This document shows, one piece after another, positions 9,518-35,797 of a stretch of DNA of 64,000 nt (position 1 is the first letter of the stretch; every line of letters begins with the position of its first letter). This DNA comes from Sphingomonadaceae bacterium 3R27C6 (GTDB taxonomy: Bacteria > Pseudomonadota > Alphaproteobacteria > Sphingomonadales > Sphingomonadaceae). The notes below the pieces were generated by a model. The model worked only from the letters and a program-made list of their open reading frames with translations, was not told the origin of the DNA and ran no database searches. Location: NCBI GenBank assembly GCA_005503215.1, contig SCNS01000001.1, positions 62,001 to 126,000 of the forward strand, written 5' to 3'. The position numbers and the translations under genes are program-made.

Positions 9518-11100
9518 TCCACGGTATGATGCAGGATTACCCGCTTACCCTCGACAAATTCCTCGATCACGCGGCGCGCTGGCACGGCGACGCCGAAGTC
9601 GTGACCGCGCGCGAGGATGGCAGCATCGCGCGGGTCGGCTATGCGATGCTGCGCGACCGCAGCCTTGCGATCTCGTCGCTGCTCGCCGGCCTCGCGGTGG
9701 GCGAGGGCGACCGCGTCGCGACGCTCGCCTGGAACAGCCAGGCGCATGTCGAGGCCTGGTATGCGACGATGGGGATAGGCGCGGTCTGCCACACGCTCAA
9801 TCCGCGCCTCACCGCGCCGCAGCTCGCGGCGATGGCGGTGCAATCGGGCGCGAAGCTGCTGATCGTCAGCGCCGACCTGCTGCCGCTCGCGCGGTCGATC
9901 GTCGAGCGCGCGCCGGCGATCGGGCAGGTATTGGTGATCGATGGGCCCGCGGGCGACTGGCCCGCCGCAGCGCCGCCGCTCCGCGAAATCGAAGCGCTGA
10001 TCGCCGGCGCGCCGGGCGGGACCCCATGGGGCGGCTTTGACGAGCGTTCACCTGCCGGGCTCTGCTTCACCTCTGGAACGACGGGCGCACCAAAGGGGGT
10101 GACCTACACGCACCGCGCAAGCTTCCTGCACACGCTGCGAGCGTTGCAGGCCGACGTGATGGCATTCACCCACCGCGACGCGGTGCTCGCGGTCGTCCCG
10201 ATGTTCCACGCCAACGCCTGGGGTCTGCCCTTCGCGCTCCCCGCCGTCGGCGGCAAGCTCGTGCTCCCCGGACGGCAGGCCGACGGCGCAAGCCTTGCAA
10301 GACTGATCGCCGCCGAGGGCGTGACGGTCGGCGTCGGCGTCCCGACGGTGTGGCTCGGCGTCGTCGAACATATCGAGGCGGCGGGCGGCGACCTGCCGTC
10401 GCTCGAGCGCGTCATCGTCGGCGGCGCGCCGATGGCGCCCGCGCTGATGGAGCGGATCGAACGCCGGCTCGGCGTCGCGGTACAGACGAGTTGGGGCATG
10501 ACCGAGCTGTCGCCGCTCGGTACGATCGCGCCGCCCGGCGATCCGCTGCGCACCGCATCGGTGTCGGGGCGTCCGGCGATCGGCGTCGACCTGCTGCTCA
10601 CCGACGCGGCGGGCGTACCGCTTCCCGAACAACGCGGGGTCGAGGGGCATCTTCGCGTTCGCGGATCGGCGGTGGTCGAACGCTATCTGGGGCAAGCCGA
10701 GTCCGCGACCGACGACGATGGCTGGTTCGCGACCGGTGACCTCGCGCGCATCGACGCACGCGGCAACCTGTCGATCACCGGCCGGGCCAAGGATTTGATC
10801 AAATCGGGCGGCGAGTGGATCAACCCCGCCGAGATCGAGGCCGTTGTCGGCGCGCTGCCGCAGGTGTCGCTCGCCGCGGTGATCGGCCGCGAGGACCCCA
10901 AATGGGGCGAACGGCCGGTGCTGCTCGTCGAACTCGGTTCGGACGTGGAAATCAGTGACGCCGATCTGCTCGCGCCGCTTGCGGGCCGCGTCGCCCCCTG
11001 GTGGATTCCCGATGCCGTCGTCCGCCTTGCCGCCATGCCGCTGGCGCCGACCGGAAAAATCGATAAGATTCGCTTGCGGAACGACCATGGCGCGGGTTGA
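9514..11100 (+). CDS. acyl-CoA synthetase / fatty-acid-CoA ligase (AMP-forming)
   Basis: A 528-residue adenylate-forming enzyme. The AMP-binding P-loop is FTSGTTGAPKGVTYTHR, followed by WGMTELSP (A5 region), TGDLARID (A7) and GRAKDLIKSGGEWINP (A8 hinge), with the A10 lysine region PTGKIDKIRLR at the C-terminus. It would convert a carboxylic acid, ATP and CoA to acyl-CoA, AMP and pyrophosphate; family resemblance is to medium/long-chain ligases. ATG 9514 overlaps the esterase stop by four bases. In context it activates the acid released by the esterase. Confidence 0.9.
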   Translation: MIHGMMQDYPLTLDKFLDHAARWHGDAEVVTAREDGSIARVGYAMLRDRSLAISSLLAGLAVGEGDRVATLAWNSQAHVEAWYATMGIGAVCHTLNPRLTAPQLAAMAVQSGAKLLIVSADLLPLARSIVERAPAIGQVLVIDGPAGDWPAAAPPLREIEALIAGAPGGTPWGGFDERSPAGLCFTSGTTGAPKGVTYTHRASFLHTLRALQADVMAFTHRDAVLAVVPMFHANAWGLPFALPAVGGKLVLPGRQADGASLARLIAAEGVTVGVGVPTVWLGVVEHIEAAGGDLPSLERVIVGGAPMAPALMERIERRLGVAVQTSWGMTELSPLGTIAPPGDPLRTASVSGRPAIGVDLLLTDAAGVPLPEQRGVEGHLRVRGSAVVERYLGQAESATDDDGWFATGDLARIDARGNLSITGRAKDLIKSGGEWINPAEIEAVVGALPQVSLAAVIGREDPKWGERPVLLVELGSDVEISDADLLAPLAGRVAPWWIPDAVVRLAAMPLAPTGKIDKIRLRNDHGAG

Positions 11101-11839
11101 TCGGCAAGGACGCGTTGCGGCCGGGGCGGCGACGGAACAGAAATTGAAAGTCGGACGAGTGGCAGAACAGGCGAAAACGCGTCGGCGATCGACCAAGGCC
11201 GAACAGCGCGCCGAGACGATGGAACAGATCCTCGACGAAGCCGAGTATCTCTTTTCGAAGCACGGGCTGCACGGCGTCACGCTCAAGGATGTCGCGAAGC
11301 GCGTCGGCGTACACCACACGCTGCTCAACTATTATTTCGAGGACAAGAGGAAGCTGTTTGACGCCGTCTTCGCGCGCCGCGCGGTGGTGACGAGCACTAG
11401 GCGAATGCAGGTGCTCGACGAATATGACCGCGCGACGGGCGGCAAGCCGACGGTCGAGGGGGCGCTCCATGCCTTCCTCGACACCGACCTCGATCTTTAT
11501 ATCCACGGCGGCGAGGGCTGGAAAAATTACGGCGCATTGGGCGCGCAGGTCGCCAACACCCCCGAATGGGGCGCCGAGCTGATGGACAGCCATTTCGACC
11601 CTGTCGTGCTCCGCCTGATCGACCTTCTGAAGCGCGCGCTGCCCGATTGCGCCGAAGAAGACATTTTCTGGGGCTATCATTTCGTCACCGGCGCGCTGAT
11701 GGTCACGCTCGCGCGCACCGGGCGCATCGACAAGCTGTCGGGCGGCGTCTGCAAGTCCGAGGATTTCGAAGCGATCAAGGCGCGCATGGCTTCGTTCATG
11801 GCGGCAGGCTTCCTGCAAATCTGCAACAAGAAGGCTTAG
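11087..11839 (+). CDS. TetR/AcrR-family transcriptional regulator of the ester island
   Basis: About 250 residues with an N-terminal helix-turn-helix (LKDVAKRVGVHHTLLNYYF, residues about 65-85) and a larger C-terminal ligand domain. ATG 11087 overlaps the end of the acyl-CoA ligase by 14 bases; a GTG near 11159 could give a shorter N-terminus. The first 45 residues are basic and unusual for the family, so the start is uncertain. The gene sits between the catabolic operon and the SDR gene, with a 22-bp palindrome 38 bases downstream. Most likely a repressor relieved by a pathway acyl-CoA or acid; the effector is inferred. Confidence 0.85.
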   Translation: MARVDRQGRVAAGAATEQKLKVGRVAEQAKTRRRSTKAEQRAETMEQILDEAEYLFSKHGLHGVTLKDVAKRVGVHHTLLNYYFEDKRKLFDAVFARRAVVTSTRRMQVLDEYDRATGGKPTVEGALHAFLDTDLDLYIHGGEGWKNYGALGAQVANTPEWGAELMDSHFDPVVLRLIDLLKRALPDCAEEDIFWGYHFVTGALMVTLARTGRIDKLSGGVCKSEDFEAIKARMASFMAAGFLQICNKKA

Positions 11840-11877
11840 GCGGAAGGACGGCCTCGCTCCTTTCGCTTGCTCAATAT

Positions 11878-11899
11878 ATTAACTCACTAGAGAGTGAAT
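11878..11899. promoter_or_regulatory. 22-bp palindrome, candidate TetR operator (site 2)
   Basis: Arms ATTAACTCACT and AGAGAGTGAAT match at 9 of 11 positions. The final ten bases GAGAGTGAAT are identical to site 1 at 4157-4166. It lies between the TetR stop and the SDR start, ending 10 bases before the chosen SDR ATG (11910), so a bound repressor would block initiation. It also overlaps the unused ATG at 11898. Confidence 0.65.
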
Positions 11900-11909
11900 G
11901 GAGATTGAT

Positions 11910-12818
11910 ATGGGACATGACAAATTGCCGCTGCACGGCCGGGTCGCGATCGTCACCGGTGCCGGGGGCGGACTGGGCCGCACGCATGCGCTCTACCTCG
12001 CCAAACAGGGCGCGCGCGTCGTCGTGAACGACCTCGCGATCGCCGCTGCCGAGCAGGTTGCCTCCGAAATCGTCGCGAACGGCGGCGAGGCGCTGGCGGT
12101 TGGGGGTTCGGTGACCGACGAGGCCGCGGTGGGTGCGATGGTTCACGAGACGCAGGGTGCGTGGGGACGCATCGACATTCTCGTCAACAACGCAGGCATC
12201 CTGCGCGACAAGAGCTTCGCCAAAATGAGCATCGACGATTTCCGATTGGTCGTCGACGTGCACCTTATGGGCGCCGCGATCTGTTGCAAGGCGGTGTGGG
12301 GCATGATGCGCGCGCAACAATATGGGCGCATCGTGATGACGACCTCGTCGTCGGGGCTGTGGGGCAATTTCGGCCAGGCGAATTATGGCGCCGCCAAGAT
12401 GGCGCTCGTCGGCCTGATGCAGACGCTGGCGATCGAGGGCGAGAAATATGGCATCCGCGTCAACGGCCTCGCGCCCACGGCCGCGACGCAAATGACGCAC
12501 GGCGTGCTTGCCGACGCCAGCCTCCAACTGCTCGATCCTGCGCTCGTCAGCCCCGGGCTGCTCGCGCTTGTCGGTGATGACGCACCGACGCGCGCGATCC
12601 TCTGCGCGGGTGCGGGGCATTTCGCCACGGCCGATGTGACCTTGTCGAATGGGCACTATGTCGGCGCGGCGGAAGATGCGGGCGAGCAGCTCGTCGCGCG
12701 CTGGTCCGATGTGTCCGCCCGTGCCGACGCGATCGTTCCAGCTTACGGTTTCAAGCAGGCCGAACGCGAACTGGCGAGCGCGGGATCGGGCCTGCCCGCG
12801 TTGGCAATCGCCCGGTAA
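11910..12818 (+). CDS. short-chain dehydrogenase/reductase (hydroxyacyl-CoA dehydrogenase-like)
   Basis: A 302-residue NAD(P)-dependent oxidoreductase. The Rossmann motif is TGAGGGLGRT, NNAG follows, and the catalytic set is a serine in TTSSSGLWG with YGAAK. The beginning (LPLHGRVAIVTGAGGGLGR, VVVNDL) resembles the dehydrogenase domain of peroxisomal multifunctional enzyme type 2, which oxidises (R)-3-hydroxyacyl-CoA. ATG 11910 has GGAG at 11900-11903; ATG 11898 lies within the palindrome and lacks a site. It is the last gene of the island, under its own operator, and probably oxidises a hydroxy intermediate made after CoA activation. Confidence 0.88.
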   Translation: MGHDKLPLHGRVAIVTGAGGGLGRTHALYLAKQGARVVVNDLAIAAAEQVASEIVANGGEALAVGGSVTDEAAVGAMVHETQGAWGRIDILVNNAGILRDKSFAKMSIDDFRLVVDVHLMGAAICCKAVWGMMRAQQYGRIVMTTSSSGLWGNFGQANYGAAKMALVGLMQTLAIEGEKYGIRVNGLAPTAATQMTHGVLADASLQLLDPALVSPGLLALVGDDAPTRAILCAGAGHFATADVTLSNGHYVGAAEDAGEQLVARWSDVSARADAIVPAYGFKQAERELASAGSGLPALAIAR

Positions 12819-12823
12819 AGGTT

Positions 12824-12849
12824 CGAGCGTCGCGGGTCAGCGACGCTCG
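12824..12849. terminator. hairpin between convergent genes, overlapping a stop codon
   Basis: CGAGCGTCGC and GCGACGCTCG form a perfect 10-bp stem with a 6-base loop. It lies between the convergent SDR and outer-membrane channel genes, and the last codons and stop of the channel gene are inside the stem. No U-tract follows on either strand, so intrinsic termination is plausible but not certain. Confidence 0.5.
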
Positions 12850-14237
12850 ACCAATCCACCACCCAGCGCGACATACAGCGTCACCAGATTGTCGACCTGC
12901 GCACGGCGCAGCTCGATCAGCGCCTGCTCGGCGGCGAACAAATTTCGTTCGGCGTCGAGGACTTCGAGATAGGTCGACACGCCTTCGCGATACCGCTTGC
13001 GCGCGAGGTCGGCGATCTGCCGGGTCGCGAGCGTGCCGCGTTCCTGCGCCTCGACCTGGTCCGCCAGATAACGTCGTCCGGCGAGCGCGTCGGCGACTTC
13101 GCGGAACGCGCCCTGCACGGTGCGCTCATAGGTCGCGACCGCGATATTCTCGCGCGCCTCGGCGACGGTCAGATTGCCTTTGTTGCGCCCGAAATCGAAG
13201 ATCGGCAGGCTGATCGACGGGCCAAAACTCCAGCCGAACCCATCGTTACTGAACAGGTTGTCGAGCGAACCCGAGGCGAAGCCAAGATTGCCGGTCAGCG
13301 AGATCGACGGGAAGAAGGCGGCGCGGGCGGCGCCGACATTGGCGCGCGCGGCGCGCAGCCGCTCTTCGGCCGCCACTACGTCGGGCCGCGCGACAAGCAG
13401 GTCCGACGGCAGCCCGGCGGTCAGCGTCGGCGACTGGCTCTGCGCGACGAGCGGCAGCGGCGCGGGCAGGGGACCGGTCACCGGTCCGCCGGTCAGCACG
13501 GCGAGGAAATTGTCGGCCTGCGCCTTGCCGAGCTTCAGGCTCGCAAGCTGTGTCTCGGCCTGCGTCAGCAGCGTTTCGGACTGGCGATAGTCGAGCGCTG
13601 AGGTGACCCCCGCGTCGAGGCGGCGCTTCGCGATCCGCAGCCCTTCCTTGCGGCTCGTCACCGTGGCTTCGGCGAGGCTGATCTGCTCGTCGGCGCCGCG
13701 CGATGCGAAATAGGACGAGGCAACGTCGCGCACCAGCGCGAGGCGGAAGGCGCGCTCGGCCGCCTCGGTCGCGAGATACTGGCTGCGCGCGGCTTCGGAC
13801 AGATTCTTGACGCGCCCCCAGAAATCGAGCTCGAACGAGGTCACGCCGACGCCGACCGAATAGCGATTGGTCGTGTCGGTCCCGGGTCCGGTCAACGAGG
13901 CGCCGCGCGTGCGTGTCGCGGCGGCGCTGGCGCCGACCGTCGGCAGGCGGTCGGCGTCCTGGATGCGGTACAGCCCGCGCGCTTCCTCGATCTGCGCGAC
14001 CGCGACGGCGAGGTCGCGGTTGCGCTCGATCGCCTGCGCGATCAGCACCTCGAGTTGCGGATCGGCAAAGAAGTCCTGCCAGCTGACCTCGGTCGCCCGC
14101 TGCCCGAGCGTCACATCGCCCGCGAACTCGGCCGGATAGGCGGGCGCGGTGGGCAGCGCCGGGCGCTCGTGCTTCGGCGCCATATTGACGCATCCGGCGA
14201 GCGTCGTCGCTGCGAGCAGCGCGATCAGGTTACGCAT
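12837..14237 (-). CDS. RND efflux outer-membrane channel lipoprotein, NodT family
   Basis: A 466-residue TolC/OprM-type channel completing the tripartite pump encoded upstream. The N-terminus MRNLIALLAATTLAGC carries a lipobox with cysteine at position 16. Two outer-membrane-efflux repeats follow, each with long alanine-rich helices (for example QIEEARGLYRIQDADRLP and VVAAEERLRAARANVGAAR). ATG 14237 overlaps the pump stop by 8 bases; an in-frame ATG at 14252 is possible. Third gene of the operon 18555-12837. Confidence 0.92.
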   Translation of the reverse strand: MRNLIALLAATTLAGCVNMAPKHERPALPTAPAYPAEFAGDVTLGQRATEVSWQDFFADPQLEVLIAQAIERNRDLAVAVAQIEEARGLYRIQDADRLPTVGASAAATRTRGASLTGPGTDTTNRYSVGVGVTSFELDFWGRVKNLSEAARSQYLATEAAERAFRLALVRDVASSYFASRGADEQISLAEATVTSRKEGLRIAKRRLDAGVTSALDYRQSETLLTQAETQLASLKLGKAQADNFLAVLTGGPVTGPLPAPLPLVAQSQSPTLTAGLPSDLLVARPDVVAAEERLRAARANVGAARAAFFPSISLTGNLGFASGSLDNLFSNDGFGWSFGPSISLPIFDFGRNKGNLTVAEARENIAVATYERTVQGAFREVADALAGRRYLADQVEAQERGTLATRQIADLARKRYREGVSTYLEVLDAERNLFAAEQALIELRRAQVDNLVTLYVALGGGLVERR

Positions 14238-17200
14238 GACCGGGTTCCTCATGATGTCCTTTTTCGGCGGGTGCGGGCGGTCGCTTGCGGCTGATCCACT
14301 TGCGCACCGAGAGATAGAAGAGCGGGATGAAGAAGATGCCGAGCAACGTCGCCGCGATCATCCCGCCCATCACGCCCGACCCGACCGCGATGCGGCTGGC
14401 GGCACCGGCTCCGCTCGCGATGACGAGCGGCACCATGCCCAGGATGAAAGCGAGGCTGGTCATGATGATCGGCCGCAGGCGCAGCTTGACCGCTTCCATC
14501 ACCGCGTCGAGCGTCGATTTGCCCTCGGCCTCCTGCTCGATCGCGAACTCGACGATCAGGATCGCATTCTTCGCGGCGAGCCCGATGATCGTGATCAGGC
14601 CGACGTTGAAGTAAATGTCGGCCGACAGCCCGCGCAGCATCGAGAAGAGCACCGCGCCGAGCACGCCGAGCGGCACGACCAGCAGGACCGCGACGGGCAC
14701 CGACCAGCTTTCGTAAAGCGCCGCGAGCAGCAGGAAGACGACGACGAGCGACAGGCCGAGCAGCATGCCGATCTGGCCCGCCGACTGCTTCTCTTCATAG
14801 GAAATGCCGGTCCATTCGGAGGAGAAGCCCGTCGGGAGCTGCTGTGCGAGCCGTTCCATTTCGGCCATCGCCTCGCCGGTCGACTGGCCGGGCGCGGGCT
14901 CGCCCGAAATCGTCATCGCGGGATAGCCGTTATAACGCTGGAGCTGCGGCGCTTCGGCCGACCATTCGGCGGTGCTGAACGATCCGAAAGGCACCATGTC
15001 GCCGTTCGCGCTGCGCACGCGCAGGTCGAGGACGTCCTGCGGGGTCATGCGGCTCGCGGCATCGGCCTGGAGCAGCACGCGCAGCACGCGGCCTTCGCGG
15101 GTGAAGTCGTTGGCGTAGGCGCTGCCGAAGCTGATCGCGAGCGTCGCGTTGACGTCGCCGATCGACAGGCCGAGCGCGCGTGCCTGAATGCGGTCGATGT
15201 CGACCTTCAGCACGGGCGCGTCCTCCTGACCCTCGGGGCGGACGTTGGCGAGCAGCTTGCTCTGCATCGCGCCGCCGAGCATCTGGTTGCGCGCGGCGAT
15301 CAGCGCGTCGCGCCCGTTGCCGCCGCGGTCCTGCAGCTTGAAGGTGAAGCCGCTCGACGTGCCGAGTTCGGGGATCGACGGCGGGCTCAGTGAGAAGGCA
15401 AAGGCTTCCTTGATGTTCGCGTAGGTGCCCATCGCCTTGCCCGCGATCGCGTCGGCGCTGTCGCCTTCGCCCTTGCGTTCTTCCCAAGGCTTGAGCGGGG
15501 TGAACATGATCGCGTTCGCCTGTCCCTGCCCAAAGAAGCTGAACCCGTTGACCGTCACGACATTGGCGACCTGCGGCTGCTCGGCGAAGAAGGCCTTCAC
15601 CTGCTTGGTCGCCTCGTTGGTGCGCTGTGTCGTCGCGCCCGGGGGCGCCTGGATCACGGTCACCAGATAGCCCTGGTCTTCCTGCGGCAGGAACGAGCCC
15701 GGCAGGCGGGTGAAGAGCAATGCGGTGATCGCGACCATCGCGACGAACACGCCGAGCCAGCGCAGCGGCGTCGCCAGCATCTTGCCGACGCCGCCCTGAT
15801 AGCGGTCGGTCGTGCGCCCGAACCATTCGTTGAAACGGCCGAAAAAGCGGTCGAAGAATGCGCCGATGCGGCCCTTGCGCTCGGTCTTGTCGTGCGGCTT
15901 CAGCAGCGTTGCGCACAGCGCAGGCGTCAGCGTCAGCGCAAGCAGCGCCGAGAAGGCGATCGAGATCGCGAGCGTCATCGAGAATTGGCGATAAATGCCG
16001 CCGGTCGACCCGGGGAAGAACGCCATCGGGATGAACACCGCGATCAGCACGAGCGTGATGCCGACGATCGCCGAGGTGATTTGGCTCATCGCCTTCACCG
16101 TCGCGTCATAGGGCGACAGATGCTCTTCGTTCATGATGCGCTCGACATTCTCGATCACGACGATCGCGTCATCGACGAGGATGCCGATCGCGAGCACCAT
16201 GCCGAACAGGGTCAGCACGTTGATCGAGAAACCGAACATCCAGAGGCCGAGGCATGCGCCCGCGAGCGCGATGGGGACGACGACGGTGGGGATGACGGTC
16301 GCGCGCCAGTTCTGGAGGAACAGGAACATGACGAGGAAGACGAGCAGCATCGCTTCGCCCAGCGTCTTCACCACCTCTTCGATCGACAGGCTGATGAACG
16401 GCGTCGTGTCATACGGGATCGACCAGGTGATGTCGGGCGGGAAACCCTTCGACAGCTCGTCCATCCGGTCGCGAATGCCCTGGGCGGTCGACAGCGCGTT
16501 GGCGCCGGGGGTCAGCTGGACCGCGAGGCCCGCCATCGGCTTGCCGTTGAGTTCGGACGAGAAAAGATAGCTCGCCGCGCCCAGTTCGACGCGGCCGACA
16601 TCGCCGAGCGTGACCGCCGACCCGTCGGGATTGGCGCGCAGGATGATGCTTTCGAACTGTTCGGGCTTGGTAAAGCGGCCCTGCGTCGTGATGACGGCGT
16701 TGAGCTGCGCGCCCTTGGCGATCGGCTGGTCGCCGAGCTGGCCGCCCGGGGTCTGGCTGTTCTGCTCCTGCACCGCGCCCAGCGCTTCGGCAGCGGAGAG
16801 ATTATACGACGCGAGCTTTTGCGGGTCGAGCCAGATGCGCATCGCATATTCGGGCGCAAAAGCCTGGACGTTGCCGACGCCGTTCACACGCCGCAGCTCG
16901 TCGAGCACGCGCGTGTTGGCGAAGTTGTTGACCTCCATCGGGTCGGTGTTGCCGCTCTTCGACGTGATCGCGACGATCAGCAGGAAGCCCGAATTGGCCT
17001 CGGTGACCGAGATGCCCTGGCGGCGCACATCCTCGGGCAGGCGCTGCTCGACGCGGCGCAGGCGGTTCTGCACTTCCATCTGCGCATTATCGATGTCGGT
17101 TCCCGCCTCGAAAGTCAGGTTAATCGACGCTGTGCCGTTCGATTCGCTGGTCGAGGCCATGTAGAGGAAGCCCTCGACCCCGTTCAGTTCCTGCTCGATG

Positions 17201-32590: not shown

Positions 32591-33625
32591 TCAGCTCTTG
32601 GAATAGCCCGGGCGGAAGCTGGTTGAGGTGCGGACACGCGCGGGTTCGGGGCGGCGCACATCCTGTTCCTGCGTCGCCGGGGCAGGTCGCTGGGCGATTT
32701 CCCAAGCGCTGACCGGCTTGCGGGTCATGTCCTTCTGCGCGCCGAGCGTCTCGTCATAGGCGGTGCGTTCCTGGCGATCGAGGAAACGCGCATGCTTCAG
32801 CCGCTTGCTGAGCGTCGCAAAGGGATTGTCGTCGGTGGGCCCGGCCATCGCCATCGCTTCGTGACGACCCATGCTTCCGCTCGGCGCGGCGACAAAGGCG
32901 GGAACCGTCCGCGGCGCGACTTCTTCCTCTTCGGGCGGGGCATAGGCGGGCGTGATCCACGGCTGCGTTTCGCTGGTCACCGGCTCGGCTGCCGCAACGG
33001 ACGCGGGCTCATATTCATACGCCGCGGCTTCCGCACCGACCGCGCGGCGGCGGCGAGCGAAGGCCAATCCGGCGCCGCCGATGACCAGCAGCGCTGCTGC
33101 GCCGCCGGCGATCTCCCACGGGAACGCATCGCCGGTTGTCGCGGTTTCAGCGGGCAGCGGCGTGGGCTCGGCGATCGGTTCGGCCGGCGCTGCCATCGGG
33201 GCGGCGATCGGCGTGGCTTCCTCGATCAAGGGAGCCTCGGCGGCCGGTGCCGCGGCAGGGGTGGCAGCCGCTGCGACGGGCGCCGCGGGGCGTGCACGCG
33301 GCGCCGCGCGTTCGGCGCGCGCCGGAGCGGGCGCTGCGGCGCGTTCTGCTGCCTTGGGTGCGGGAGCGGTCTTTTCGGCGGGGATGTCCAGCGGGACGCG
33401 GATAATCGGGGCCGGCGCGGCGGGCTGCGCGGTCTGCGGGGTTGCGACCGGGGCGGTGGTGCTTGGTTCGGGGACCGTCGGCGGGGTTTGCGGCGTCGGC
33501 GCCGCCACGGGCGGGGTCATCGTAACGGTCGGCGCTTCCTGCGCAAAAGCGCCGGGAGTTGAAAGAACCAGGAACGCGGCAATCGCGCTCATGGCGGGGC
33601 GGGAGAGGGCGATATTTCTTGTCAT
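32591..33625 (-). CDS. Pro/Ala-rich single-pass membrane protein, unknown function
   Basis: A 344-residue protein. It has a signal peptide (MTRNIALSRPAMSAIAAFLV, cleavage near AFAQ), then about 130 residues of low-complexity Ala/Pro, one membrane helix (EIAGGAAALLVIGGAGLAFA) stopped by RRRR, and a C-terminal charged tail with NPFATLSKRLKHARFLDRQE. By orientation the low-complexity part is periplasmic and the tail cytoplasmic. ATG 33625 is chosen because it gives the better signal peptide; GTG 33646 is possible. Similar proteins occur in other sphingomonads, without assigned role. The gap 33626-33911 holds only a half REP-like arm at about 33870. Confidence 0.72.
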   Translation of the reverse strand: MTRNIALSRPAMSAIAAFLVLSTPGAFAQEAPTVTMTPPVAAPTPQTPPTVPEPSTTAPVATPQTAQPAAPAPIIRVPLDIPAEKTAPAPKAAERAAAPAPARAERAAPRARPAAPVAAAATPAAAPAAEAPLIEEATPIAAPMAAPAEPIAEPTPLPAETATTGDAFPWEIAGGAAALLVIGGAGLAFARRRRAVGAEAAAYEYEPASVAAAEPVTSETQPWITPAYAPPEEEEVAPRTVPAFVAAPSGSMGRHEAMAMAGPTDDNPFATLSKRLKHARFLDRQERTAYDETLGAQKDMTRKPVSAWEIAQRPAPATQEQDVRRPEPARVRTSTSFRPGYSKS

Positions 33626-33911
33626 AGTGAAGGACGAACGAGCCACCTGCCGAAAATGCTGCTCGGGCGGGGCGGTTTCCGGGATGAGCCGTGGCTGCCG
33701 AACGGCGCGGCGAGGATTCAGCGGCGGCTGGTCGTGCCGTCACACCATTTTTGCGATCGGGCGGACCGGAGCGATCGATCGCCCGGGCCGGTTCCGGGAG
33801 CACGCATTTCCGGTGATATGCGCTTCAATATGACAGGGGTTTTGCGTTTTGGTGTCGGCCGGGTCACCAATTCGTCATTCCCGCGCAACCTGGGCGTGAT
33901 CAACGCCGCGC

Positions 33912-34940
33912 ATGAAAACCACCGACCTTGCCCCGACCCGGCTGCCGAGCCAGCTGCGTGAAACGCAACGGCTGCTGTTCATCGCCAAGCATGCGCGCTG
34001 GACCGGCGGGCTGCATGCCGACGACGGCAATCACGCGCCCTACCACCGCGAAATGCGCGAGACGCTCGAAGCGATCGGCATCCAACTGCTGATCGCCGAT
34101 AGCTATGCCGCGCTGTTCGACCGGCCCGCCGCCGATTTCGTCTTCCCGCTGCTCAATCGCGGCGGCTTTTTCAATTCCGAAATGCTGCTGCCCTTGCTCT
34201 GCAACCAGCATGGTCTGCCGTACCTTGGCGCCTCGCCGATCGTGCGCGGCCTGTCCGACGACAAGCATCTGACCAAGCTCGAGGCCGCGGCGCGCGGCGT
34301 GCCGACCGCGCCCTGGGCGCTGTTCCGCCGCGGCGCGCCCGTCGACGTATCGCGCTGCCCGCCGGCGCGGCGCTGGGTGATCAAGCCGAACAACAGCTCG
34401 GCCTCGTGGGGCGTCCGCGACGCGCACGACCGGGTTCAACTTGCGCAGGCGGTCGCCGAAATCCACGCGCTCGACCATGATGCGCTCGTCGAACCCTTTA
34501 TCGACGGCAGCGACATCGAGGTGCCGGTGATCACGCTCGATGGCGAACCCGCGATGCTGCCGATGATGATTTTCGAGCAGGACGATCCGACGCAGCTGCG
34601 CACCTATCAGGAAAAGCGCGACCTCGTCGGCAACGTCGGATATAGCATCAAGCGGTTCGACGACCCCGCGATCGCGGAACGGATTGTCGACTATACCAAG
34701 CGGATGGCCGATATCTTCCGACCGTTCGACTATGGCCGGTTCGAGTTTCGCGTCGATCACACGACCGGCGATGTCCGGCTGCTCGAGGTCAATCTCAACT
34801 GCAATCTCTGGTCCGAAAAGCTGTTCTCGCGCTCGGCCGTCGCGGCCGGCTTCACCCACGCGGCGCTGATCGAAACGATCGTCGCCGAAAGCATGCTTCG
34901 CCAGATTGCGCCCGCCGCGGCGCGGCGGAGCGCCGCATGA
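33912..34940 (+). CDS. ATP-grasp ligase, D-Ala-D-Ala-ligase-like, unknown substrate
   Basis: A 342-residue ATP-grasp protein. DFVFPLLNRGGFFNSEMLLP and GLPYLGASPIVRGLSDDKHL resemble D-alanine-D-alanine ligase-like enzymes; RWVIKPNNSSASWGV is the first nucleotide-binding lysine strand, EPFIDGSDIEVPVITLDG the second region, and VRLLEVNLNCNLWS holds the metal-binding Glu/Asn pair. The typical Ddl omega-loop is not evident, so it probably joins other carboxylate and amine partners. Its stop overlaps the next start by four bases, implying a functional pair. Not the housekeeping ddl, which normally sits with mur genes. Confidence 0.78.
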   Translation: MKTTDLAPTRLPSQLRETQRLLFIAKHARWTGGLHADDGNHAPYHREMRETLEAIGIQLLIADSYAALFDRPAADFVFPLLNRGGFFNSEMLLPLLCNQHGLPYLGASPIVRGLSDDKHLTKLEAAARGVPTAPWALFRRGAPVDVSRCPPARRWVIKPNNSSASWGVRDAHDRVQLAQAVAEIHALDHDALVEPFIDGSDIEVPVITLDGEPAMLPMMIFEQDDPTQLRTYQEKRDLVGNVGYSIKRFDDPAIAERIVDYTKRMADIFRPFDYGRFEFRVDHTTGDVRLLEVNLNCNLWSEKLFSRSAVAAGFTHAALIETIVAESMLRQIAPAAARRSAA

Positions 34941-35797
34941 GCGGGTCGATCCTGATCCTTGCGGGTCGCCGCCCCGGGGCGGTCGATGCGCTCGCCGAGG
35001 CATATGGCGTCGGCGACAAATGCCTTGTGCCGGTCGCCGGGCGGCCGATGATCGCGCATGTTCTGGAAAGCGCAGCCGATAGCAGCGCCCGACAGGTGTT
35101 CGTTTCGACGCACCACGCTAGCTTGCTCGCCGAGTTGACCGACCCGGTGGTCGATCTGCTCGGCGACCGGCTGATCATTATACCGGCGGCCGATAATTTG
35201 GCGGATTCGGTTCTCGCGGTTGCGGGCATGGCCAGCTTTCCGCTGCTCGTCACGACCGCCGACAATTGCCTGCTGACCCCCGCGACGATCGCCGAGATCG
35301 AAGCCGAGGCGATACGACTCGGCGCCGATGCCGGGGTCGCGCTGGCGCGGCGCGAGGATGTGCTGGCGGTCCATCCCGAAGGCCAGCGGCGCTTTTACGA
35401 GTTTTCCGACGTCGCGGTATCGAACTGCAACGCCTATTGGATCGGGCATCCGAACGCGCTCCGCGCGGCGGAGGCGTTTCGTGGCGGCGGCCAGTTCGTC
35501 AAGAAGCCGTTTCGCGTGATGCAGGCGTTCGGCCTGATCAACCTGCTCCGTTTCCGCTTCGGGCTCGGTCCGATCCACCACATCTTCCAGCGCATTTCGC
35601 GCCATCTGGACGTCGAAATCGCCCCGCTGCTGGTGCGCAACGGGGCGACGGCGATCGATGTCGACAATGAAAGGTCGCTGCGGGTGACCGAGGCGCTGAT
35701 GAGGCGCCCCGACATCGTCAATCCGCGACCCAGTTCCCATGAAAGCCGGGAGGAACACGGTGCGGCAGATGCACGACAGCTTGCGGTGACCCGGTAA
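34937..35797 (+). CDS. nucleotidyltransferase (NTP-transferase, MobA/GlmU-like fold)
   Basis: A 286-residue protein with an N-terminal nucleotide-binding segment ILILAGRRPGAVDALAEAYG, KCLVPVAGRPMIAHVLES (the substrate loop of sugar-phosphate nucleotidyltransferases) and the metal-binding LLVTTADNCLLTP. The classical G-G-x-G-T-R/L motif is altered (AGRRPG). A central LINLLRFRFGLGPIHHIFQRI is hydrophobic and may contact a membrane. It overlaps the ATP-grasp gene (ATGA) and its 3' end overlaps the convergent carotenoid oxygenase gene by 80 bases. Possible role: activating a small phospho-compound to an NDP or CDP form for the partner ligase's product; inferred. Confidence 0.75.
   Translation: MSGSILILAGRRPGAVDALAEAYGVGDKCLVPVAGRPMIAHVLESAADSSARQVFVSTHHASLLAELTDPVVDLLGDRLIIIPAADNLADSVLAVAGMASFPLLVTTADNCLLTPATIAEIEAEAIRLGADAGVALARREDVLAVHPEGQRRFYEFSDVAVSNCNAYWIGHPNALRAAEAFRGGGQFVKKPFRVMQAFGLINLLRFRFGLGPIHHIFQRISRHLDVEIAPLLVRNGATAIDVDNERSLRVTEALMRRPDIVNPRPSSHESREEHGAADARQLAVTR

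Follow-up and report, generated by a model that had tools for sequence, protein, structure and literature searches.

What two abutting genes, one for an ATP-grasp enzyme and one for a nucleotidyltransferase, might make together is the question raised by positions 33912-35797 of the window (the whole stretch of 64,000 nucleotides that was analysed). Gene A (33912-34940, plus strand, 342 aa) encodes an ATP-grasp protein of the D-Ala-D-Ala ligase superfamily, and gene N (34937-35797, plus strand, 286 aa) encodes a MobA-like nucleotidyltransferase whose closest solved structure is TTHA0179 (2dpw). The four-base overlap given in the preliminary description was confirmed: the stop codon of A and the start codon of N share ATGA at 34937-34940 of the plus strand, with both ORFs at the coordinates given above. 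The overlap is more than chance, because exactly four bases are kept in 43 of the 54 relatives in which both ORFs were recovered. When the window was compared with two close relatives, pN/pS came to 0.07 and 0.13 for A and to 0.155 and 0.255 for N, in keeping with constraint on both as protein-coding genes; values of A against L106, L111, and L120 were excluded since these are ungapped comparisons that look inflated. Named Sphingopyxis records carry A proteins that are 90-97% identical to that of the window, and by this measure the window belongs to a Sphingopyxis genome. No description of the A/N module is apparent from titles and abstracts in the open-access literature, subscription journals being outside the scope of this search. 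A/N is a widely kept, uncharacterised module.

The pair was previously described as standing alone between rplL and a carotenoid oxygenase gene, both names being that description's own. The pair is not entirely alone: between A and the presumed rplL there is a minus-strand ORF (32591-33592 or 32591-33646), and the last 80 bases of N (35718-35797) are shared with the next gene, a convergent one of 480 aa. Inverted repeats around the pair amount to one short palindrome. Judged by eye, the intervening ORF (32591-33646, minus strand) is Pro/Ala-rich, begins like a signal sequence, and has a single hydrophobic segment; it is present in two other genomes of the window's genus.

The resemblance of A to D-Ala-D-Ala ligases noted earlier is borne out by its match to PF07478 (59.9 bits, gathering score 24, E=3.1e-16), which places it in the ATP-grasp superfamily, and by a profile match to Ddl structures at E about 1e-18; its nearest relatives by profile are Ddl ligases. 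The NCBIfam matches listed (25 of 32) are all below cut-off, and none of the Ddl/Van models among them is near it, TIGR01205 reaching 77 bits with a cut-off of 245.65. The window's A was aligned with 19 relatives (n=20, identity down to 39%). The ATP-grasp lysine and loop are found at residues 158-167 (KPNNSSASWG; 34383-34412, plus strand), where K158, P159, N160, S162, S163, S165, and W166 are invariant in the 20 sequences. At residues 292-300 (EVNLNCNLW; 34785-34811, plus strand), an alignment including E. coli DdlB places E292 and N294 opposite DdlB E270 and N272. Altogether K158, S162, S163, K235, R276, E292, and N294 are invariant and aligned to DdlB, and we take them to be the ATP-grasp catalytic residues (K, loop, R, E, and N). 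A thus shares with the Ddl ligases the ATP-grasp domain, the lysines, the loop, the arginine, and the E/N metal residues, whereas its N-terminal part is unaligned over the first 60 or so residues. DdlB residues G276 and S281, which presumably serve the D-Ala site, are without equivalents in A, where these positions are occupied by the invariant N298 and the nearly invariant K303. Judged from these alignments, A seems to be functional as an ATP-grasp enzyme but to act on a substrate other than that of Ddl. The candidate function of D-Ala-D-Ala ligase proper was ruled out by the NCBIfam score and the site residues.

N scores 45.4 bits against PF12804 (MobA-like NTP transferase), above the gathering score of 27, and is borderline for PF02348 (22.7 bits against 22.6), while all 15 NCBIfam families listed for it (MobA, KdsB, GlmU, and others) are far below their cut-offs. 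An altered P-loop (AGRRPG) and a retained KCLVPVAGRPM motif had been pointed out before. Both motifs are present, but AGRRPG is the signature of N's own family, with R12, G14, and K28 invariant in 26 aligned sequences. In the same alignment L19 and A20 are also invariant, and the segment of residues 12-28 (34970-35020, plus strand) is presumed, by analogy, to bind the nucleotide. Two further invariant sites are D109 (35261-35263, plus strand), a presumed metal ligand, and DVDN at residues 241-244 (35657-35668, plus strand), in which D241, D243, and N244 are invariant and which we take to be a second metal site. An insert at residues 146-193 (35372-35515, plus strand) carries the invariant residues H146, QRRFY 150-154, SNCN 162-165, FR 181-182, GGQF 184-187, K189, and R193. 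With its many R, K, Q, N, and H residues, this insert would suit an anionic acceptor.

The predicted structure of N (mean pLDDT 84.5) has TTHA0179 (2dpw) as its best fold match, with Z 24.4, rmsd 2.4, 230 aligned residues, and 25% identity, followed by GlmU, TarI, IspD, and CobY at Z 17 to 19. The alignment with TTHA0179, whose entry is titled hypothetical, covers the insert and extends as far as the DVD motif near the C terminus; the QRRFY..SNCN..GGQF residues that are invariant in the N family, however, are mostly not kept in it, and no reported function of TTHA0179 was found in the open-access literature. The hydrophobic helix singled out in the preliminary description corresponds to helices near residues 191-208, where the confidence of the model is low; they are a family feature, because their region aligns with this solved Thermus protein. 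With regard to the nucleotide, the CTP enzymes among the fold matches are TarI and IspD, plus KdsB in a separate comparison, and the invariant S91 of N aligns with the 'SV' of an IspD. Enzymes using UTP (GlmU) and GTP (CobY) match the fold at Z similar to the CTP enzymes. No sign of a degenerate active site was found in the two proteins, by alignment for A and by alignment and model for N.

We searched 199 genomes of the family with each protein and counted A above 280 bits and N above 145 bits, the latter cut being placed by eye in the narrow interval between 145.9 bits (G058) and the next match at 133.1. A was present in 71 genomes and N in 76; 70 genomes have both, one has A alone, six have N alone, and 122 have neither. 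The best matches are at most 4 kb apart in 42 of these 70 genomes and are distant or on separate contigs in the other 28. Genome counts are non-independent events and genus tallies only soften the phylogenetic bias; by genus, A is found in 45 of 96, and A plus N in one genome in 44 of 96. That the two genes belong together is thus upheld, as 70 of the 71 A genomes have N, 28 of these with the genes unlinked. Phylum-wide, A was found in 10 of 398 genomes (E<=1e-25). Outside the family it was found in four genomes (two of the same order and two of other families of the class) and N is adjoining in 4/4, so the pairing extends beyond close relatives to other genera and families of the class. Neither outcome that the preliminary description named as refuting it, a pairing confined to close relatives or a degenerate active site, was observed. 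Among named-genome relatives of A, of which the best 80 of 331 were kept, N is directly downstream of A in 57 of the 80 loci, some of which are cut by contig ends. In one order-level relative (L190, G515:C1:223000-239000) A is located between two N-type genes, with a neighbour that we take to be an MmgE/PrpD-like gene. The neighbours of unlinked N, presumably glycine-cleavage, homoserine-dehydrogenase, acyl-CoA dehydrogenase, and miaB-phoH-ybeY genes, were considered as partners and judged to be housekeeping surroundings.

A third gene encodes a PLP-type enzyme, mostly of 460-515 aa, and is divergent from A in 52 of the 80 loci (best 80 of 331). It was detected in 31 of the 199 family genomes, with A present in 31/31, and 40 of the 71 A-positive genomes are without it. 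The gene was not found in the window's genome or in G042, and it is present in G122, a third genome of the genus. Searches gave no Pfam match (2 members, E<=0.01), no substantial match in NCBIfam (one chance match at E=0.079 among 4 members), and no relative among PDB sequences (best E 0.58). A model of the L120 copy, from a gene absent from the window, reaches a mean pLDDT of 90.1 and shows the fold of class V aminotransferases, AEP transaminase, and cysteine desulfurases, with top structural matches at Z 22.7 to 25.1; AEP transaminase is the top Foldseek match, tied with many class V enzymes. D256 and K283 are invariant in the PLP family and, judged from the alignment, probably have PLP roles. 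An example member is L120:2753-4267 (minus strand), and in G104 and L126 the gene comes out in two pieces. A second copy of A, about 50-57% identical to the window's A, is located near the PLP gene in several genera (L067, L069, L070, L144, L147, L149, L153, and L154). Such doubling of A may mean two successive ATP-grasp steps.

A MOP-type flippase (PF01943) adjoins the PLP gene in several genera, and N in some genomes with A distant. Strong flippase matches were taken as those above 230 bits, a cut made by eye in a very small gap (237.8 versus 228.7, the latter in G051, a genome without strong N). By this cut the flippase is present in 42 of 199 genomes, and 40 of the 42 have N. Of these 40 genomes, 19 have it at most 500 bp from N and another 5 no more than 6 kb away; in the other 16 it is elsewhere. 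With 24 of the 40 genomes thus having the two genes close together (6 kb or less), the envelope link suggested earlier is plausible. There was no flippase match in the window's genome at E<=1e-20, and in most Sphingopyxis loci of the named set none of the searched flippases is near the A/N pair. In some genera a PF14397 sugar-transfer-associated ATP-grasp protein, a TonB receptor with a PF01663 phosphodiesterase-type protein, or a PF03372 phosphodiesterase-type protein is encoded near A; no consistent neighbour of A or N that could be a product-using transferase was found. At L065 two acyltransferase genes (PF01553 and PF13444) are beside A.

At the site of the A/N module in some related bacteria, others carry a different set of genes predicted to serve a surface polymer. 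A paralogue of N (29% identity to N) is encoded on another contig of the window's genome. In 13 paralogue loci, most of the 12 beyond the first having been picked for a nearby flippase, we observed a TagF-like gene in 12, a flippase in 12, a HAD phosphatase in 9, and genes that we take to be sdhB and RNase E in 11 and 7, respectively. Without that selection the flippase link of the paralogue looks looser: for 53 paralogue matches, 34 genomes have a weak flippase match, and in these 34 the distance is at most 500 bp in 14 and at most 10 kb in 28. In other genomes A and the PLP gene adjoin the same two families: among 65 clustered loci, the sdhB family is adjoining in 24 and the RNase E family in 13. 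The TagF-like protein has no Pfam match and resembles Cps3D (E=5.5e-4) and TarL (0.089) only weakly by profile. These weak matches, together with the flippase and the N paralogue, make the alternative set similar to TagF-like teichoic/capsule polymerases.

The TagF-like gene is present in 82 of 199 genomes. It was found in none of the 44 A-positive genomes without the N paralogue, which sets the A module apart from such polymerases, and in 18 of the 27 A-positive genomes with the paralogue (paralogue counts in A-positive genomes were taken from match numbers, with G142 left out since its second match is a second N). The N paralogue itself is present in 27 of 71 A-positive genomes versus 85 of 128 A-negative ones. 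Fourteen genera hold both a species with A and no TagF-like gene and a species with the TagF-like gene and no A. In 3/3 congeneric pairs, selected from gene maps already suggesting exchange, the flanks are common and the contents differ, with the A set in one species and the TagF-like set in the other at the same locus. This alternation is a tendency and not a rule, because 15 genera, including Sphingopyxis, have species with both A and the TagF-like gene, and the two sets are not exclusive because the window's genome and 17 other A-positive genomes carry both. One locus of the window's genome (L080, G000:C6:28000-46000, about 9600-16000) encodes MobA-like and PF00483-type nucleotidyltransferases, a PF01066 CDP-alcohol phosphatidyltransferase, a TagF-like protein, a HAD protein, a flippase beside sdhB, and presumably a HIT-like protein. 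A teichoic- or inositol-phosphate-like function of this locus is conceivable.

We propose, with a probability of roughly 40%, that A and N catalyze consecutive steps toward a nucleotide-activated, amino-acid-like building block for an exported envelope conjugate. A would spend ATP on activating an acid group carried by a small, amino-acid-like metabolite, and would then join the activated acid to an amine, as Ddl-family enzymes do, with amide chemistry expected from the superfamily. N would act next in the presumed order of steps, transferring a nucleotidyl group from an NTP to a phosphate on A's metabolite, and CMP is weakly favoured as that group. The nucleotide-activated product may serve as the donor for an envelope lipid or polymer, which the MOP-type flippase would export. 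In many lineages the class-V-fold PLP-type enzyme may supply or alter the amine, a step without a counterpart in the window's genome. The module would alternate with the set of paralogous nucleotidyltransferase, flippase, TagF-like transferase, and HAD phosphatase, which in some congeners is found at the same locus. Sphingomonads largely use glycosphingolipids in place of LPS. A broader reading, rather doubtful at present, is that they exchange capsule-like surface-polymer types at one locus, one type teichoic-acid-like and the other based on a nucleotide-activated amino acid or peptide, the latter yielding a previously unseen conjugate by way of the ATP-grasp enzyme, the nucleotidyltransferase, and the PLP-type enzyme. 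What looked like an isolated two-gene curiosity becomes a module with defined partners and an alternative, and congeners differing in locus content allow an envelope comparison. If a nucleotide-activated amino acid or peptide is indeed the product, the module would reveal a surface component so far unseen in a large bacterial order, and bacteria would have their own version of the chemistry that has been proposed for pseudomurein precursors.

Known systems are similar to the proposed pathway in part. According to one report, the phosphoglycerate cytidylyltransferase CpgD of Caulobacter is needed for an anionic envelope lipid in the ceramide diphosphoglycerate pathway (PMC12275187), and it is likewise an alphaproteobacterial nucleotidyltransferase for an envelope lipid. 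CpgD is reported to be of the COG1213 type; the PF00483-type protein of the window's genome is encoded by a separate gene on another contig (in L080). For pseudomurein, the same two enzyme classes are discussed in a second report in connection with a nucleotide-activated amino acid and a wall polymer (PMC11915815). The likeness is one of enzyme classes; the pseudomurein genes belong to archaea and are found in separate clusters, together with Mur ligases and MraY-like genes.

A close rival of the ligase reading, itself possible but somewhat unlikely, is that A is a small-molecule kinase that phosphorylates an amino-acid-like metabolite and that N nucleotidylates the phosphate so formed. A and N are the most strictly paired genes, which would be explained if two enzymes sufficed to start from a precursor that lacks a phosphate; the residues found in A at the DdlB G276 and S281 positions (N, invariant, and K, nearly so) would be in keeping with this route. 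On the other hand, the nearest relatives of A are the Ddl ligases, whose chemistry goes through acyl phosphates and not through stable phosphate esters. Precedents are found in both reports cited above: the pseudomurein candidate set, for which nucleotide-activated glutamate is proposed, contains an ATP-grasp protein, suggested to phosphorylate L-Glu, and a MobA-like NTP transferase (PMC11915815), and Cj1416 of Campylobacter is a phosphoglutamine cytidylyltransferase (PMC12275187). The first precedent is weakened by the location of the two archaeal genes in separate clusters (PMC11915815). It is also conceivable, but unlikely, that A and N form one pathway to a soluble metabolite (an osmolyte or a natural product) and that the flippase link is incidental. 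This would account for the 16 of 40 genomes with the flippase more than 6 kb from N or elsewhere, for the lack of a match (E<=1e-20) in the window's genome, and for the Sphingopyxis loci, most of which are without the searched flippases near the pair, but it leaves unexplained that 40 of 42 strong flippase matches are in N-positive genomes and that A alternates with a flippase plus TagF-like set at one locus.

The remaining explanations would separate the two genes or place them in other pathways. Shared horizontal transfer of A and N with unrelated functions would suit the narrow range (10 of 398 genomes phylum-wide, E<=1e-25) and the variable locus; we regard it as improbable, with 28 genomes retaining both genes although they are unlinked. 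The MobA-like Pfam domain of N may suggest a cofactor enzyme of the MobA, CofC, or IspD type with A as a side gene, but the 15 NCBIfam models listed are far below cut-off, strong N is missing in 123 of 199 genomes, and N has its own conserved insert, making this very improbable; N as a cofactor nucleotidyltransferase was ruled out on scores and distribution. Phosphonate tailoring of the Pnt type combines a nucleotidyltransferase with a class-V-fold aminotransferase, a logic shared with the module, and PntC occurs fused to an AEP transaminase domain according to one report (PMC6697681). The top Foldseek match of the PLP model (AEP transaminase, in a tie with many class V enzymes) points the same way, and both genomes with PEP mutase over the curated cut-off (G042 and G001) have A. 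That enzyme, however, passes the cut-off in only 2 of 199 genomes versus 71 with A and is below it in the window's genome; a phosphonate pathway for the A/N module was ruled out by this distribution and is the least probable of the readings considered. The two PEP mutase genes are located at G042:C1:815308-816156 and G001:C1:1067532-1068344, and phosphonate synthesis may occur sporadically in the family.
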